A stretch of 64,000 bases of DNA from Planctomycetota bacterium (GTDB lineage Bacteria > Planctomycetota > UBA1135 > UBA2386), in contig JAJFFD010000005.1 in the NCBI GenBank assembly GCA_021776805.1, positions 1 through 64,000 on the forward strand, read 5' to 3'. The position numbers and the translations under genes are program-made. The notes below the pieces were generated by a model. That model saw nothing but the letters and a program-made list of their open reading frames with translations. It was not told where the DNA came from and made no database searches. Of the stretch, positions 1 to 8,060 are shown in pieces (the first letter of the stretch is position 1; each line of letters begins with the position of its first letter).

Positions 1-232
1 GATCGAGGAGCAGCAGGGAGGTGACATCGACCTGCTTGCGTACTTGCTGGCAGAGGTTGTCCACGGACCTGCCCTGGTCAGCGAGGCGAAGTCGGACCTT
101 GATCTGGGCATTGTCCGCAGCCATCTCTGCATGGGTCCCCAGAATTGGGAAGCCGCGCCGCTCCACCATGCTGAGCAGGCGCATGAGAGCTCCTTCACCG
201 GGGCGCAGGATCACTTCGAGTTCGTGCTGCAC
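1..232 (-). CDS. ilvN: Acetolactate synthase small subunit, ACT domain (IlvN/IlvM-like), 3' end outside window
   Basis: Minus-strand frame reads MQHELEVILRPGEGALMRLLSMVERRGFPILGTHAEMAADNAQIKVRL..., an ACT-domain start. It overlaps the ilvB 3' end. GTG start at 232 is inferred. Confidence 0.75.
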   Translation of the reverse strand, partial: MQHELEVILRPGEGALMRLLSMVERRGFPILGTHAEMAADNAQIKVRLRLADQGRSVDNLCQQVRKQVDVTSLLLLD

Positions 233-1890
233 GGCACCGCCTCGATCATGGTCGAATTCGATTGGTTGGGTGGCACCAGGGGCCAGACGTTGGCCGCCGC
301 ATCGATGCAGACGTGAAGCAGGGCTGGGCCGGCCTGGGCATCCAGCCAGCTGAGGGCCTCCTTGCAGTCAGCAGCTCGGTCCAAACGCCTGGCGGGGATG
401 CCGAAGGAGCGGGCCACCAGGGCAAAATCCGGATTGTCCGAGAGGTCCACCTCGGAGAAGCGACTGTCGAAGAAGCACTCCTGCCACTGGCGCACCAGTC
501 CCAGGCCCGAGTTGTCGAGGAGCATGATCTTGATGTCCAATTGGTAGCGACGAATGGTGGCCAGCTCCTGCAAGTTCATCATGAAGCTGCCGTCGCCGGA
601 GATTGCGAGCACATCTGCATCCGGTCTGGCCAGCTTCACGCCGATGGCTGCGGGGACACCGAAGCCCATGGTGCCGAGGCCGCCGCTGGAAATGTGTTGC
701 TCGGGCCTGGCAAAATGCGCGTGTTGCGCGACCCACATTTGGTGCTGCCCCACGTCACAGGTGATGGTCCAACGCCCGGGATCTTTGCTGCTGAGCTCAC
801 GAATGAGTGCTGGTGCATAGACTCCCGGACCCGGCGCGTCGTAGCGCGCCGAATGCTTCGCAGTGTTTCTGAGGCAAGTCCGTCGCCAGTCTGCGCAGGC
901 GGGAGGACGCATGGGCAGGGATGCGAGAGTCTTCTTCAAGTCGCCAGCCAAAGCCAAAGTCGGACGGCGGAGCTTGCCCAATTCGGCTGGGTCGATGTCC
1001 ATGTGGATCACCGCGGCCATGGGGGCGAAGCTGGCGAGCTTTCCCGTTGCTCGATCATCGAAGCGGGCGCCCATGCAGATGAGCAGGTCCGCGTCCTGCA
1101 CCGCGCGGTTGGCGGCCTGGTTGCCATGCATGCCGAGCATGCCGAGCAGGAGGGGATGTTCGCTGGGAAGCGTGCCGATGCCATTCAGGCTGGTGACCGT
1201 AGGGATCTGGCTTGCGGCCACATAGGCACGGAAGGCATCGACGGCCTGGCTGCTGAGGAGGCCGCCGCCGGCATAGAGAACCGGTCGTCGTGAGCGGGCG
1301 ATCATCATCGCCGCGTGGTGCAGATCTTCTGTCCTCGGGCCCGGCGCTTCCGGCGCCTGGGCACAGGTCTCCACTGTGGATTCCGGTTCGGGACTGAGGG
1401 CGCTGGCCACATCCTTGGGCAGGTCGATGAGCACGGGCCCGGGTCTGCCGGAATTGGCGATGTGAAAGGCCTCGCGAATCACCTGGCGTAGATCCTTGCT
1501 GTGGCGGACCAGGTAGCTGTGCTTCACCACCGGCATGGTGATGCTGAAGATGTCGACCTCCTGGAAGGCGTCTGTGCCGAGGACGGGAGTAGGCACCTGG
1601 CCGGTGATGGCCACAAGGGGTACCGAGTCGAGGAATGCGTCGGCGATGCCGGTGATCAAATTGGTGGCGCCGGGTCCGGAAGTGGCCATGCACACGCCGG
1701 TGCGACCAGTGGCGCGGGCATAGCCACCAGCAGCCAGGGCAGCAGCCTGCTCATGGCGCACGAGCACGTGCCGTAGACTGGATTCGGTGAGCGCGTCGTA
1801 CACGGGCATGATCGCGCCCCCCGGGTAGCCGAAGATGGTTTCCACACCCTGGGCTTCGAGTTCTTGGATGAGGACCTGGGCACCGTTCAT
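211..1890 (-). CDS. ilvB: Acetolactate synthase large subunit (ThDP-dependent)
   Basis: Protein from MNGAQVLIQELEAQGVETIFGYPGGAIMPVYDAL; GDGSFMMNLQEL ThDP motif; adjacent to ilvC and ilvN. Start trimmed from the ORF-track start at 2034. Confidence 0.95.
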   Translation of the reverse strand: MNGAQVLIQELEAQGVETIFGYPGGAIMPVYDALTESSLRHVLVRHEQAAALAAGGYARATGRTGVCMATSGPGATNLITGIADAFLDSVPLVAITGQVPTPVLGTDAFQEVDIFSITMPVVKHSYLVRHSKDLRQVIREAFHIANSGRPGPVLIDLPKDVASALSPEPESTVETCAQAPEAPGPRTEDLHHAAMMIARSRRPVLYAGGGLLSSQAVDAFRAYVAASQIPTVTSLNGIGTLPSEHPLLLGMLGMHGNQAANRAVQDADLLICMGARFDDRATGKLASFAPMAAVIHMDIDPAELGKLRRPTLALAGDLKKTLASLPMRPPACADWRRTCLRNTAKHSARYDAPGPGVYAPALIRELSSKDPGRWTITCDVGQHQMWVAQHAHFARPEQHISSGGLGTMGFGVPAAIGVKLARPDADVLAISGDGSFMMNLQELATIRRYQLDIKIMLLDNSGLGLVRQWQECFFDSRFSEVDLSDNPDFALVARSFGIPARRLDRAADCKEALSWLDAQAGPALLHVCIDAAANVWPLVPPNQSNSTMIEAVPCSTNSK

Positions 1891-2900
1891 GCTTTGGCCT
1901 CGGCCTTTGGCGGCGCATCCAACCAGCTCATGTCTGCACGTAGGCGAGAGCCCACTTCCTCGATGCTGTGGTTGAGGTCGGCTGCGAGCATGCGCTTGAA
2001 TTCTTTGCGGCCCGTGCGGTCCTCGTCGATCCATTCGCGCGCGAATTTCCCGGAGCGCACTTCGCCGAGGACTTGGCGCATGCGTTCACGGACGGCGCCG
2101 TCGATGACTCGAGGTCCGCGGCTGAGATCGCCGTACTTGGCGGTGTCACTGACGAAGCGGTGCATTTTGGCGAAGCCGCCTTCGTAGATCAGATCGACGA
2201 TGAGCTTCATCTCGTGCAGGCATTCGAAGTAGGCGATCTCCGGCTGGTAGCCGGCATCTTTCAGGGTCTCAAAGCCAGCAACGATGAGTTCGGTGACGCC
2301 ACCGCAGAGCACGGCCTGCTCACCGAAGAGGTCGGTCTCGGTTTCCTCAGCAAAGCTGGTTTCGAGGACGCCGGCGCGAGTGCCACCAATGCCGTGGGCA
2401 TAGGCGAGGGCACGCTGCTGAGCGGTTCCCGTGCTGTCCTGATGGACCGCGAGGAGGCAGGGTACGCCCTTGCCCTGCACGAACTGGCGACGGACGAGAA
2501 TGCCCGGACCCTTGGGGGCAACCATGGCCACGTCGTATTCGCTGCCGACTTGGATCGTTTCGTAGTGGATGTTGAAGCCGTGGGAGAAGAGCAACATGGC
2601 GCCGGGCTGCAAGGCAGCTTTGATCTCCTTCTCAAAGACTCTAGCCTGGGCTGTGTCGGGTAGGAGCATGGCAACAAGATCGCTGCCTTGGACTGCTTCT
2701 TGAATGGGCAGCGGGCTCCAACCGTCGGCGACCGCGGCGGCATGGCTCTCACCTCCGGCGCGGAGACCGAGTTGGACGCGAAGGCCGCTGTTGCGCAGGT
2801 TCATGGCCTGGGCGCGGCCTTGACTGCCATAGCCGATGACCGTGACTTGCTGGTCGGCGAGGGCGGCGGGATCGACATCGTCTTGGCGATACATCTTCAT
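1887..2900 (-). CDS. ilvC: Ketol-acid reductoisomerase
   Basis: VTVIGYGSQGRAQAMNLRNSG Rossmann motif; AMVAPKGPG; FECLHEMKLIVDLIYEGG; ~337 aa. ATGA overlap with ilvB. Confidence 0.97.
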   Translation of the reverse strand: MKMYRQDDVDPAALADQQVTVIGYGSQGRAQAMNLRNSGLRVQLGLRAGGESHAAAVADGWSPLPIQEAVQGSDLVAMLLPDTAQARVFEKEIKAALQPGAMLLFSHGFNIHYETIQVGSEYDVAMVAPKGPGILVRRQFVQGKGVPCLLAVHQDSTGTAQQRALAYAHGIGGTRAGVLETSFAEETETDLFGEQAVLCGGVTELIVAGFETLKDAGYQPEIAYFECLHEMKLIVDLIYEGGFAKMHRFVSDTAKYGDLSRGPRVIDGAVRERMRQVLGEVRSGKFAREWIDEDRTGRKEFKRMLAADLNHSIEEVGSRLRADMSWLDAPPKAEAKA

Positions 2901-2922: not shown

Positions 2923-4569
2923 TCAGTTTGAATTCGGGATAGTGACTGCGCCTTGCGCGGCGGAGCTCACCAGGGCGGCGTACTTGGCGAAGGCACCGCG
3001 GCTTGGAGTCTTTTTGCTTACGGCTGGACTGCGGCCGGCGAGCTTCGCGTCCGTGTCCAGGCGCTTCCTCTCCACATCGATGTGAATCAGGTCGCCGTCA
3101 CGGAGCAGGCCGATGGGACCTCCGGCGGCGGCTTCCGGGGCCACGTGTCCGACCATCAGGCCGTGGGTGGCGCCGCTGAAGCGGCCGTCGGTGATGAGGG
3201 CGACCCGATCGCCGAGGCCACGACCGATGAGGGCGGCGGTCACCGCCAGCATCTCGCGCATGCCGGGCCCGCCCTTCGGTCCTTCGCTGTGGATGACGAG
3301 CACTTCACCGGCTTGAACTTGACCCTGCTCGACGGCGGCGAAGGCCGCTTCTTCGCTGTCGAAGACTCGAGCCGGTCCACGAAAGGACTGCTGCTCAGCG
3401 CTGGAGAGTTTGACCACCGAGCCTTCGGGTGCGAGGTCGCCGAAGAGAATGGCAAAGCCTCCCTGGGCCTTTAGGGGGGAGTCCGGCGAGTAGAAGACCT
3501 GGTGGCCTTCGGGCTCAACATGTCCGGCGATGAGTTCGGAGAGGGGCTTGCCCTCCACGCCTGGGCAGTCGTGCAGGAGTCCGGCTGCGAGCAGCCGGCG
3601 GGCGAAGGCAGGGGTTCCTCCGGCATGAAACCAATCGACGGCGGTGAAGCGACCGGCGGGCTTGAGGTCGGCGATGACCGGTCGCGTGCAAAGATCGTTG
3701 AAGCGCTGAATCGGGAACTCGACCTCCGCCTCGCTGGCGATGGCTAGCAAGTGCAGCACCGCGTTGGTGGATCCACCGGAGCAGAGTGCGGCAGTGGCTG
3801 CGTTCTCCAGGGACTCACCGGTGATGAGATCACGGGGGCGGAGGTTCATCTCGAAGGCAGCCATGAGGGCTTCGCCGCAGCGCTGAGCTTCCGCATGCTT
3901 GTCCTCGTGAGTTGCCGGCAGGTCGTTGCTGCCCATGGGGGAGAGGCCGAGCATGCTGAGTGCCAGGGCCATGGTGTTGGCGGTGAACTGACCGCCACAG
4001 GCGCCGGCGCCCGGGCAGGCTCGGCTTTCCAATTGCCTGAGTCCGTCTTCACTGAGCGTGCCAGCCTGGCAGGCACCGACTGCTTCGAAGACATCTTGGA
4101 TGGTTACGTCCCTGCCCTCGAAGCGGCCGGGGGCGATGGAACCACCGTAGAGGATGAGCCCGGGCAGATTGAGGCGGGCCAGGGCCATGGCGGCGGCGGG
4201 CAGAGTCTTGTCGCAGCCCGCCAGGACCAGCACAGCATCCAGCATGTGCCCCGAGACGGCGAGTTCGATGGAGTCGGCGATGACCTCACGTGAAACCAGG
4301 GAAGCGCGCATTCCAGGGGTGCCCATGGAGATGCCATCGGAGACCACGATGGTGTTGAACTCGATGGCGGTGCCGCCGGCGGCACGGATGCCCGCTTTGA
4401 CCGGGTCGGCGAGTTCGCGCAGGTGGAGGTTGCAAGGAGTGACCTCACTCCAGGTATTGACCACTGCCACCAGGGGGCGGTCGATTGCAGAATCGCTCAG
4501 GCCCGTGGCTTTGAGCATGGCACGGGCGGGTGCGCGGCTTTTGCCTGTCTTGATTGCGTCGCTGTTCAT
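2923..4569 (-). CDS. ilvD: Dihydroxy-acid dehydratase
   Basis: ARAMLKATGLSD, AGCDKTLPAAAMALARLN, CPGAGACGGQFTANTMA, ITDGRFSGATHGLMVGHVAPEA; 548 aa. Confidence 0.97.
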   Translation of the reverse strand: MNSDAIKTGKSRAPARAMLKATGLSDSAIDRPLVAVVNTWSEVTPCNLHLRELADPVKAGIRAAGGTAIEFNTIVVSDGISMGTPGMRASLVSREVIADSIELAVSGHMLDAVLVLAGCDKTLPAAAMALARLNLPGLILYGGSIAPGRFEGRDVTIQDVFEAVGACQAGTLSEDGLRQLESRACPGAGACGGQFTANTMALALSMLGLSPMGSNDLPATHEDKHAEAQRCGEALMAAFEMNLRPRDLITGESLENAATAALCSGGSTNAVLHLLAIASEAEVEFPIQRFNDLCTRPVIADLKPAGRFTAVDWFHAGGTPAFARRLLAAGLLHDCPGVEGKPLSELIAGHVEPEGHQVFYSPDSPLKAQGGFAILFGDLAPEGSVVKLSSAEQQSFRGPARVFDSEEAAFAAVEQGQVQAGEVLVIHSEGPKGGPGMREMLAVTAALIGRGLGDRVALITDGRFSGATHGLMVGHVAPEAAAGGPIGLLRDGDLIHIDVERKRLDTDAKLAGRSPAVSKKTPSRGAFAKYAALVSSAAQGAVTIPNSN

Positions 4570-4610: not shown

Positions 4611-4643
4611 AAAAAAGCCCCGCATCCTCAGGGATGCGGGGCT
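4611..4643 (-). terminator. Intrinsic terminator/attenuator upstream of ilvD
   Basis: Minus-strand AGCCCCGCATCC-CTGA-GGATGCGGGGCT (perfect 12-bp stem) followed by TTTTTT; lies between the leader ORF and ilvD. Confidence 0.85.
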
Positions 4644-4670
4644 CTTCCGAGCGAGGCCGACTGTGTCTGC

Positions 4671-4814
4671 CTACCGCATCCCTTCCGGGCTGCTAATAAT
4701 AAGTACGAGGCTAATATCGAGTCCGAACACGGGGATCCCGGCGTCAGGGAGGGCGCGTCTCGCGCGGCTCACTTCGCAGTTTTGGTTCCGGTTGTCGAAG
4801 ACTCGGGAAGTCAT
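4671..4814 (-). CDS. Candidate branched-chain amino-acid leader peptide (47 aa from ATG at 4814, or 19 aa from GTG at 4730)
   Basis: MTSRVFDNRNQNCEVSRARRALPDAGIPVFGLDISLVLIISSPEGMR*. ILV-rich run (LDISLVLII) just upstream of the terminator. Absent from the ORF track because it is short. Confidence 0.7.
   Translation of the reverse strand: MTSRVFDNRNQNCEVSRARRALPDAGIPVFGLDISLVLIISSPEGMR
4674..4683 (-). promoter_or_regulatory. Predicted antiterminator strand
   Basis: AGGGATGCGG (minus, 4683-4674) is perfectly complementary to CCGCATCCCT (minus, 4639-4630), which overlaps the 5' arm of the terminator. Confidence 0.65.
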
Positions 4815-4851
4815 GGGCGGCAATCCTTAGTTGCTTTGCTGGGTACGGTCA

Positions 4852-4885
4852 AGGAGGGTCGAACAGTTTTCTGTTCGACCCTCCT
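4852..4885. terminator. Perfect 15-bp stem-loop, probable terminator between the S9 peptidase gene and the ilv leader
   Basis: AGGAGGGTCGAACAG-TTTT-CTGTTCGACCCTCCT; 40 bp past the stop codon of the minus-strand S9 gene. No strong U-tract. Confidence 0.6.
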
Positions 4886-4927: not shown

Positions 4928-7807
4928 CTACTTGTCCTCAGTCAGATCCGGCGCCTTCGCCTTCTGATACTTCTCCGCAGCCCGCTCCGGGTACTTCACG
5001 TGGATGTCGAGCCATTCGACCCAGCGCGCCCACATGTCGAGGATGGTTTCCGCCCCTGCTGGGCCATGGGCCTCGTAGGGGTAGACATAGAGAGCCACGT
5101 CCTTACCCAGGCCATTCAGCGCCTGGAACATGCGCGGTGAGTTGATGGGGAAGGTGCCCGTATTGGCATCGTCCGCACCGTGATACATGAGCAGGGCGCC
5201 ATTCACCTGGTTGGCCCAGAAGAGGGGGGACATGCTCGTGTAGGTCTCCCGTGCATCCCAGAAGTTGCGTCGTTCCGATTGGAAAGACATGGGGGTCAGG
5301 GTGCGGTTGTAGTTGCCATCGCCAGCGATACCCGCCTTGAAGAAGGGGGTGTGGGCCATGGCATTGGCGGTGCTGAAGGCACCGTAAGAGTGGCCACCGA
5401 GGGCAAGGCGATCCCGGTCGATCATCTCGCGCTTGTCGAGCTCGTCGATGACGGCCCAGAGGCTATTCCGCAGGTCGGCGACGTAGTTGTCGTTCATCCG
5501 GCCTTCCTTGCCGATGATCGGGCAATCCGGCTCGACGACCGCATAACCGGCGAGGGTCATGAGCTGCATGGAGCGGTTGCGCATCATCGGGAAGCGATTC
5601 GGGTTCGGCTTGCGAACACCACGGTCATAGGCCTCCTGGGAGGTGTACTCTCGGGGGTAGAACCAGAACAGCGCGGGCAGCTTGACGCCGTAGCCGCGTG
5701 GGATCGTTACCGAGACCCAGAACTTGATGCCGTCCACACGGGTAACCTGGAAGCGATGACGCTCCGCATTGGTGACCTCGGGGGCCGGATCGATGTTGTC
5801 GGTCAGCTGGCGTAGTCGGCCGCTCGCCCTGTCAAGGAGATGGTCATTGGGGATCTCAGTGGCCGTCTGGCGATTGATCACCAGTTGGCTCATGTCGTCA
5901 TCGAGGATGGCGGCAATGGAATCCATGTGATCGCTGGATCCTTCCCAAATGCGTTCCTTCTCAGCGGAGCCGATGGCGATCTTGTCCATGTAGGGCTTGG
6001 GGCTGCCTTCTTCGCCTTCCTTCGGCTGATCCGTTCCGGCCATGTAGACCGAAGTACCGTCCGATGAAGTGCGCACAATGCGTCCGCCCATGGCGCCTGG
6101 CTTGGTGCTGAGGCCAGCACCGCCGCCACCGCCGCGTCGACCGCGACCACGGCCGCCGCCGCGTCCACCAGCGCCTTGGTTGCCATCGGTCTCCTGAATG
6201 GTGAGCTTCTTGCTCGGATCCTTCAGGTTGACCGCGAAGAGGTGCCGCTTGCCATCCTTGGTCTGGGTGATGTAGAGGGTCTGACAGTCCTGGGAGTATT
6301 GCACGCCCTGGATCGGGTCATCGCTTTCCCAGACCACCTTCTGGCTGTCATCGTCGAAGGGGGGCAGCCACTGCATGATGCGATCCTTGCGGGGCTTCTC
6401 CTCCTCGGCCTTCTCCTGCGGCTTGGCAGGTTCGCTGGCTTGTGCTGCTGCGGCCGGAGCGGCTGCTGCAGGTGCCGGAGGTTGAGCGCCAGCAGGACGG
6501 TTGGCGCGAGTGCCGGCACCACGCCGTGCACCGCCGCGACGGACTCCACCGCGCCTACCACCAGCACGGGTGCCAGCAGCACGGTTGCCACCGCGGCGAT
6601 TGCCGGCGCGGCGAGTCTGGTTGCCGGCGGCGGCGGGCTGATCAGCCTTGTCCGCATCCGCCTTCTTGGCGTCGTCCTTGGTTTCTTCCTTGGCTTCTTC
6701 CTTCTTGGGCTCGAGCTGCAGGAAGGACATGCCATTGCCGTCCGGGCGCCAGCTCAGGCTGCGACGACCGTCGTTTTGGTTGCCATTGCCGCCGCGTCCA
6801 CCGCGGCCACCGCCGCCGCGTCGCTGGCCTTCAACGAACTTGCGCTCGTTGAGCATGTTCAAGGGCATGCCCTCTCGGTCGATGATCTCTTCCTTCGTTC
6901 CGAAGGAGCTGCGCGGCGCGAAGTAGGAGAAGGGCCGCTGCATGCTGGTGACCCGGAAGTGCTGCGCGTCCGGGGACATGTTGACGCTGGTGTACATCGC
7001 CGGGGCGCCGACGTTGTGAACTTCGCCGCTCTCGCAGTCGAGGACGGCGAGCTGACCCGTGGTCAGATACTCGAGCAGATCCTTGTCGTAGGGAGTCTTG
7101 AGGAGGAAGCGGTAGGTGCGCGCTGGAGTCTCACCTTCGTGACTCATCCACACCGTCGGTTCGGTAGCGGTCACTGGGCGCTGTGGCATGGGGCCACGGC
7201 CATCTGGGATAACCACCGCCAGGAGTTGCTTGCTGTCGCCTGCCCAGGAGAAGTTGCCAACCAGAGACGCGTTCAGTGGGCGCTCGGAAACCTTGCGCGC
7301 CTTGGCGGACTCAACATCGGCCACGTAGAGGTAACTCGCGTCATCATGATTGCCGATGAAGGCGATCTTGCTGCCGTCCGGAGACCACTGGCTGCCGCTG
7401 ATGGTCATCTGCTCCGGCAGATTGATCCAACGTCGTTCGCCAGTCTTGTGTGAAACCAGCTTCATTCCGACGGTGTTGCCCGTGCTCAGGCGCCGGGAGC
7501 GGTTGGCCACATGGTCGATCGCTGTCTCGCCCAGATTGACATAGGGCCGACCCATGGCGGTGAGTGGGGTCATTCCCCGACTCTGATTGACCAGGAAGTA
7601 CTGACCGTCAGGGCTGAGGTTGCGCAGGTTCTCCGGATTGTGCATCGCATCCGAAGTGATCACGTCGGCGATCACCGGCTGTGGGCGAAGGTAGTCCTCC
7701 TGCGAGAGAACGACCTGTTGGGCGTTTGTGTTGCTGAGCAGCAGAACTGCCGTCAGGCTCGCAGAAAAGAGCGAGGACCGAGCGGCGAGACGAGTGGCCA
7801 TGGTCAT
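4928..7807 (-). CDS. Secreted S9-family (prolyl oligopeptidase-like) peptidase with RG/RGG-rich insertions
   Basis: Signal peptide MTMATRLAARSSLFSASLTAVLLLSNTNAQ; beta-propeller-like N-terminus; C-terminal hydrolase with LALGGHSYGAFSTANAMAHT, GADDANTGTFPINSPRMFQAL and AHGPAG. Start trimmed from 7930. Confidence 0.9.
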   Translation of the reverse strand: MTMATRLAARSSLFSASLTAVLLLSNTNAQQVVLSQEDYLRPQPVIADVITSDAMHNPENLRNLSPDGQYFLVNQSRGMTPLTAMGRPYVNLGETAIDHVANRSRRLSTGNTVGMKLVSHKTGERRWINLPEQMTISGSQWSPDGSKIAFIGNHDDASYLYVADVESAKARKVSERPLNASLVGNFSWAGDSKQLLAVVIPDGRGPMPQRPVTATEPTVWMSHEGETPARTYRFLLKTPYDKDLLEYLTTGQLAVLDCESGEVHNVGAPAMYTSVNMSPDAQHFRVTSMQRPFSYFAPRSSFGTKEEIIDREGMPLNMLNERKFVEGQRRGGGGRGGRGGNGNQNDGRRSLSWRPDGNGMSFLQLEPKKEEAKEETKDDAKKADADKADQPAAAGNQTRRAGNRRGGNRAAGTRAGGRRGGVRRGGARRGAGTRANRPAGAQPPAPAAAAPAAAAQASEPAKPQEKAEEEKPRKDRIMQWLPPFDDDSQKVVWESDDPIQGVQYSQDCQTLYITQTKDGKRHLFAVNLKDPSKKLTIQETDGNQGAGGRGGGRGRGRRGGGGGAGLSTKPGAMGGRIVRTSSDGTSVYMAGTDQPKEGEEGSPKPYMDKIAIGSAEKERIWEGSSDHMDSIAAILDDDMSQLVINRQTATEIPNDHLLDRASGRLRQLTDNIDPAPEVTNAERHRFQVTRVDGIKFWVSVTIPRGYGVKLPALFWFYPREYTSQEAYDRGVRKPNPNRFPMMRNRSMQLMTLAGYAVVEPDCPIIGKEGRMNDNYVADLRNSLWAVIDELDKREMIDRDRLALGGHSYGAFSTANAMAHTPFFKAGIAGDGNYNRTLTPMSFQSERRNFWDARETYTSMSPLFWANQVNGALLMYHGADDANTGTFPINSPRMFQALNGLGKDVALYVYPYEAHGPAGAETILDMWARWVEWLDIHVKYPERAAEKYQKAKAPDLTEDK

Positions 7808-8060
7808 GCGATGACTCCGGGAACAATGGGACTTGAGGGAGCTGGGGGGTACCAGCGGGCGAGTTTGCTTCCTTACGGAAACTGGGCTGACCCTGCTGAG
7901 TCTATCGATGCGCAGAACAATCGTCATCACGAGGCGGGGAAAACGCGGGCGGCCTAGATTGGAGCCAGCCCTGTAAGCCCCATACCTAGGCCCTCTTGTG
8001 ATCCTTCTTCTCTCCAGCGCAAAGGTGTCACGAGAGGGTATCCTGCCTTAGCGGCCTCCG

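Follow-up and report, generated by a model that had tools for sequence, protein, structure and literature searches.

For ilv operons, control by leader-peptide attenuation is an established mechanism in Proteobacteria and has been reported in Actinobacteria (PMC1183508, PMC1262725, PMC10272879), and according to a survey from 2010 leader-peptide systems had not been demonstrated beyond these two groups before its own case from Firmicutes (PMC2965389). In the ilvB leaders of Actinobacteria (PMC1262725), including the ilvB-II motif of Corynebacterium (PMC10272879), an upstream ORF rich in branched-chain amino acid (BCAA) codons precedes a terminator/antiterminator, as it does at the locus described here, but their operon, ilvBNC, and their RNA structure differ from ours. 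In Escherichia coli K-12, the ilvL attenuator of ilvXGMEDA (NC_000913.3, positions 3950322–3950420) encodes the leader peptide MTALLRVISLVVISVVVIIIPPCGAALGRGKA, in which GTGCGGGG, situated in the codons for PPCGA, is complementary to CCCCGCAC of the terminator.

The locus lies at the start of the 64,000-nucleotide stretch of planctomycete DNA analysed here (the window; its genome is denoted G000). On the evidence of sequence comparison, it is very probably a ribosome-mediated attenuator of the ilvL (ilvGMEDA) type that would control an ilvD-C-G(-M) operon, the operon itself probably having been acquired from a donor near Myxococcota/Pseudomonadota. Its features, all on the minus strand, are as follows.

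4847–4852, minus strand: putative -35 box TTGACC; the leader ATG follows after 38 nt
4824–4829, minus strand: putative, weak -10 box TAAGGA, read from the sequence
4671–4814, minus strand: leader peptide ORF of 47 codons, with counterparts in genomes G013 (locus L002/L106) and G360 (L109) and at other loci
4695–4721, minus strand: control codons for LDISLVLII (CTC GAT ATT AGC CTC GTA CTT ATT ATT)
4674–4683, minus strand: strand A, the 5' strand of the antiterminator, AGGGATGCGG, in codons 44–47 up to the stop codon
4654–4672, minus strand: inner helix 1 of the antiterminator three-way junction (computed fold; similar in G013)
4641–4652, minus strand: inner helix 2 of the antiterminator, GCTC GGAA GAGC (computed fold; similar in G013), overlapping the base of the terminator
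4630–4639, minus strand: strand B, CCGCATCCCT, common to the antiterminator (A:B) and the terminator (B:C)
4613–4646, minus strand: hairpin of the intrinsic terminator
4611–4616, minus strand: T6 run of the terminator
2923–4569, minus strand: ilvD, dihydroxy-acid dehydratase (PRK00911, above cut-off)
1887–2900, minus strand: ilvC, ketol-acid reductoisomerase (KARI; NCBIfam, above cut-off)
211–1893, minus strand: ilvG, large subunit of an acetolactate synthase II (AHAS-II) type (PRK08978, 845.7 bits, above the cut-off of 738)
1–225, minus strand: ilvM-like ACT-type small subunit, read by eye and truncated by the start of the contig

The leader ORF (4814–4671), which opens with a putative ATG, translates as MTSRVFDNRNQNCEVSRARRALPDAGIPVFGLDISLVLIISSPEGMR and has the C-terminal end GLDISLVLIISSPEGMR. 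Seven of the nine residues in LDISLVLII are isoleucine, leucine or valine, as the initial annotation had stated, so that the ORF carries the end-product codons typical of leader-peptide attenuators. The same annotation had called the AT-rich control codons unusual, and this is borne out by codon usage in 19 genes of the window, where ATT accounts for 12% of Ile codons, GTA for 4.3% of Val codons and CTT for 4.8% of Leu codons. Leader residues N-terminal to the control codons show little conservation across relatives. Between the leader ORF and the first structural gene stands an intrinsic terminator (4646–4611) whose GC-rich arms, AGCCCCGCATCC and GGATGCGGGGCT, pair perfectly over 12 bp around a CTGA loop and precede T6; the ORF, hairpin and T-run had all been recognised ahead of ilvD, with a gap of 28 nt that measures 27 nt from the stop codon to the start of the hairpin. 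The reported complementarity between the last leader codons and the 5' side of the terminator is exact, AGGGATGCGG (4683–4674) and CCGCATCCCT (4639–4630, in the 5' arm) forming a perfect 10-nt inverted repeat. When both strands of the 64-kb window were scanned for hairpins with a dG ≤ -18 followed by T5, two were found, of which only the ilv hairpin comes after a short ILV-rich ORF. The operon had been annotated as ilvDCBN; ilvD and ilvC stand, and in place of ilvB and ilvN there is the AHAS-II-type ilvG followed by the truncated ilvM-like gene.

Compared to E. coli ilvL, the window has the same arrangement of an ILV-rich leader with the antiterminator strand (GTGCGGGG in ilvL) placed in leader codons, and a terminator with a T-run, as in CCCCCGCACC...GGTCCGGGGG plus U-run of ilvL. 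The G-rich strand in the leader codons matches a terminator arm of the CCCCGCA type, and the acetolactate synthase is likewise of the ilvG type. E. coli ilvL controls both AHAS-II (ilvG) and ilvD, and the window operon has both of these, although ilvD is its leading gene and it also includes ilvC. The window leader is also longer, with fewer ILV codons, its strand A abuts the stop codon, and its start is probably near-leaderless. As to common descent, a comparison by layout, motif and Rfam model shows the two leaders to share only architecture and a core motif. The ilvD-C-G attenuators of Lysobacteraceae and Myxococcota (L010, L042, L047 and L015) resemble the window in their downstream genes, in a similar promoter-to-start spacing, in a CCCCGCACC-type core of the terminator and in a strand A within the last codons; they belong to other phyla, and the order of the window genome differs from them in having the core GATGCG and a leader that ends in GMR before the stop codon.

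Structured RNA ahead of a biosynthetic operon could also be a ligand-binding riboswitch, a T-box or a protein-binding leader, but this would leave the ILV codons and their placement unexplained, and we consider its probability practically negligible. At the Rfam gathering score, the 64-kb window yielded one tRNA only and all matches to the leader were sub-threshold, so that no Rfam riboswitch, T-box or leader family was recognised there. The E. coli leader region falls under the Rfam model RF02744, which matches one of the relatives (L085) and not the window.

The two competing folds, whose comparison had been proposed with the initial annotation, were computed with a ribosome footprint assumed to extend 15 nt, counting from where the P-site codon begins. 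With strand B just transcribed, C not yet made and codon 39 or 40 occupied by the ribosome, A:B encloses the two inner helices in a fold of -31.6 kcal/mol; when the ribosome has reached the stop codon, the terminator is the sole possible fold, at -31.2 kcal/mol. When the last ATT is in the A site, the edge of the ribosome is two bases short of strand A, and at TAG all of strand A is covered. The antiterminator is thus mutually exclusive with the terminator, exposed by a stall and masked at the stop codon, in a geometry that follows from the standard footprint. Where charged Ile, Val and Leu tRNAs are ample, the leading ribosome would reach the TAG (4673–4671) and mask strand A, B would pair with C, and RNA polymerase would halt at the T-run. 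Where one of these tRNAs is scarce, the ribosome would stall on the CTC-GTA-CTT-ATT-ATT codons just short of strand A, A:B could pair while C is still untranscribed, and with no terminator formed the operon would be transcribed. With C transcribed, equilibrium favours the terminator, so that the switch depends on kinetics: the antiterminator has to assemble earlier and then hold, and we infer that it does so here as it does in other attenuators. Taken singly, the window locus has an A:B duplex that outscores dinucleotide shuffles by only a modest margin (p 0.037).

We scanned eighty IlvD loci of named genomes together with loci of the window's own phylum. The 23 distinct attenuators analysed, with duplicates counted once and E. 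coli K-12 ilvL added, span Myxococcota, Acidobacteriota, Pseudomonadota (including E. coli), Melainabacteria and Planctomycetota. L106, which is locus L002 again, was left out, as were L018, L049 and L056 (nearly the same as L013, L047 and L064, respectively); an automated match at L073 was spurious (p 0.385) and was also left out, and G360 (L109), L024 and L035 are among further attenuators seen by eye that stand outside the 23. Strand A starts within the leader ORF in 23/23, and in 15 of these it lies wholly in sense codons and ends before the stop; leaders often end in GCGPP or similar, which is the plain reading of the G-rich strand. The initial annotation had regarded an antiterminator strand inside the coding region as unusual, but both the relatives and E. 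coli ilvL have it, so that the layout is not new and is shared with the textbook ilv leader; the practical caution is that an ilv leader with an antiterminator inside its codons is nothing out of the ordinary. Genes downstream of the attenuators are conserved among relatives. In L037, L056 and L064, from Acidobacteriota, a variant core GGATGATG replaces GGTGCGGG and strand A spans the leader stop codon.

Pairing of at least 7 A:B positions occurs in 22 of the 23 attenuators, with a mean z of -3.8 that is biased upward since A is the best-pairing stretch. The best test of A and B evolving together was to swap terminator arms between loci: strand A reached 0.683 of maximal pairing with its own terminator arm against 0.547 ± 0.018 with permuted arms, and none of 20,000 permutations reached 0.683 (p about 5e-5), in a statistic that takes A as the best-pairing stretch of each locus and ignores shared ancestry. 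These sequence data indicate that A co-varies with B. The conservation and compensatory change that relatives had been expected to display were thus found, and with 23 recurrences the comparative evidence lends good support to the claim of ribosome-mediated attenuation. A plain intrinsic terminator, serving the upstream peptidase gene or stray transcription beside a chance ORF and with no regulation, would suit a hairpin that is strong by itself (-29 kcal/mol) and the lack of an attenuator at some IlvD relatives; the peptidase gene, however, has its own perfect 15-bp inverted repeat (4852–4885), and the combination of an ILV-rich leader with strand A and a terminator is met again in several phyla with A co-varying with B, and we judge this explanation extremely unlikely.

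The 16S gene of the window genome has 0 mismatches to the PLA886 site and 1 mismatch to the PLA46 site, which places it in Planctomycetota with fair confidence. PF07596, tried as a planctomycete marker, matched neither the window genome nor the controls and was uninformative. KARI was found in 2/41 genomes of the window's order, compared to 14/14 control genomes, and among the same 41 genomes ilvD and ilvG of the window type were confined to G000 and G013; sampling across the phylum brought in G360, from the same order. In the IlvD tree, G000, G013 and G360 form a clade (SH-aLRT 97) amid Myxococcota, Lysobacteraceae and Alphaproteobacteria; the foreign IlvDs around it mostly bear attenuators, with some forks partly weak and G360 on a long branch. 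The IlvDs of most other planctomycetes are far from this clade and had no attenuator in the stretches examined. Two other planctomycete families, f81 and f15, also have the same kind of operon with attenuators (L108, L111 and L112). Because KARI is so rare in the order and its IlvDs nest among attenuator-bearing foreign IlvDs, the simplest reading is that operon and attenuator were probably acquired together, from a donor that would lie near Myxococcota/Pseudomonadota. As a separate observation, leuA was present in 5/41 genomes of the order and KARI in 2/41, and most of the order looks to be devoid of BCAA synthesis by the usual route.

The window genome has a second, similar predicted attenuator on another contig, where leuA (L139, G000:C215) is preceded by the leader MTKLNESLPRTRLSERARLLIGMGLGLVVLRAIETDRPSG, in whose codons GACAGGCCC is set against GGGCCTGTC of a terminator with T6 (duplex p 0.026). 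leuA of G013 (L142) has the same layout (duplex p 0.006), and that of G014 (L141) has a weaker leader duplex (p 0.16) and is perhaps a further case. The horizontal origin of the ilv operon would suit an attenuator that came with the operon as a relic and no longer switches in this host, for instance where transcription and translation are loosely coupled. We nevertheless think this very unlikely: strands A, B and C are still matched in both G000 and G013 despite IlvD divergence to about 70% identity, A:B in G360 carries one mismatch, and the leuA leaders in the same family share the design.

No consensus sigma-70 promoter was found upstream of the leader. Among the 17 attenuator loci with an upstream TTGAC, 13 have an in-frame leader start codon 33–40 nt after it, a spacing for which random placement would give about 2.4 of 22 loci. 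Because this spacing recurs in 13 loci, transcription likely starts at, or a few bases before, the leader start codon, which would make the leader mRNA near-leaderless. Alternatively, AAGGA may be a ribosome-binding site, with the promoter farther upstream. Leaderless or nearly leaderless mRNA may thus be the template for many ilv leader peptides, such as those of L029, L010 and L042.

The comparison made here extends the predicted range of leader peptides of BCAA operons to Planctomycetota, Acidobacteriota and Melainabacteria, partly through operon and switch being transferred jointly. Searches of the open literature on attenuation in Planctomycetota gave no ilv case, although the 2004 and 2010 surveys of Vitreschak et al. 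and Lopatovskaya et al. may hold earlier predictions; within that literature, the statement of the initial annotation that no experimental case is described in this lineage stands, and the phylum seems to be without an earlier description of such attenuators. The new points are predicted leader-peptide attenuation in Planctomycetota and a leader mRNA that is probably near-leaderless. Attenuation requires the ribosome to be close behind RNA polymerase, and a working planctomycete attenuator would therefore bear on the suggested separation of transcription and translation in this group. Such a separation is reported for Gemmata obscuriglobus, as cited in PMC5394234 and PMC5287468. We give about even chances to the broader proposition that these are the first leader-peptide attenuators of Planctomycetota, on near-leaderless mRNAs and serving an acquired ilv operon and leuA, and that their upkeep implies tight coupling of transcription and translation there.

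The perfect 15-bp inverted repeat at 4852–4885 has a 4-nt loop and no U-run, lies directly past the peptidase stop codon and ends at the putative -35 box, and is perhaps a terminator or an operator. The peptidase gene itself (4928–7888, minus strand) encodes a prolyl oligopeptidase of the S9 family, whose catalytic domain is preceded by long stretches of low complexity in which Gly, Arg, Ala and Pro abound.
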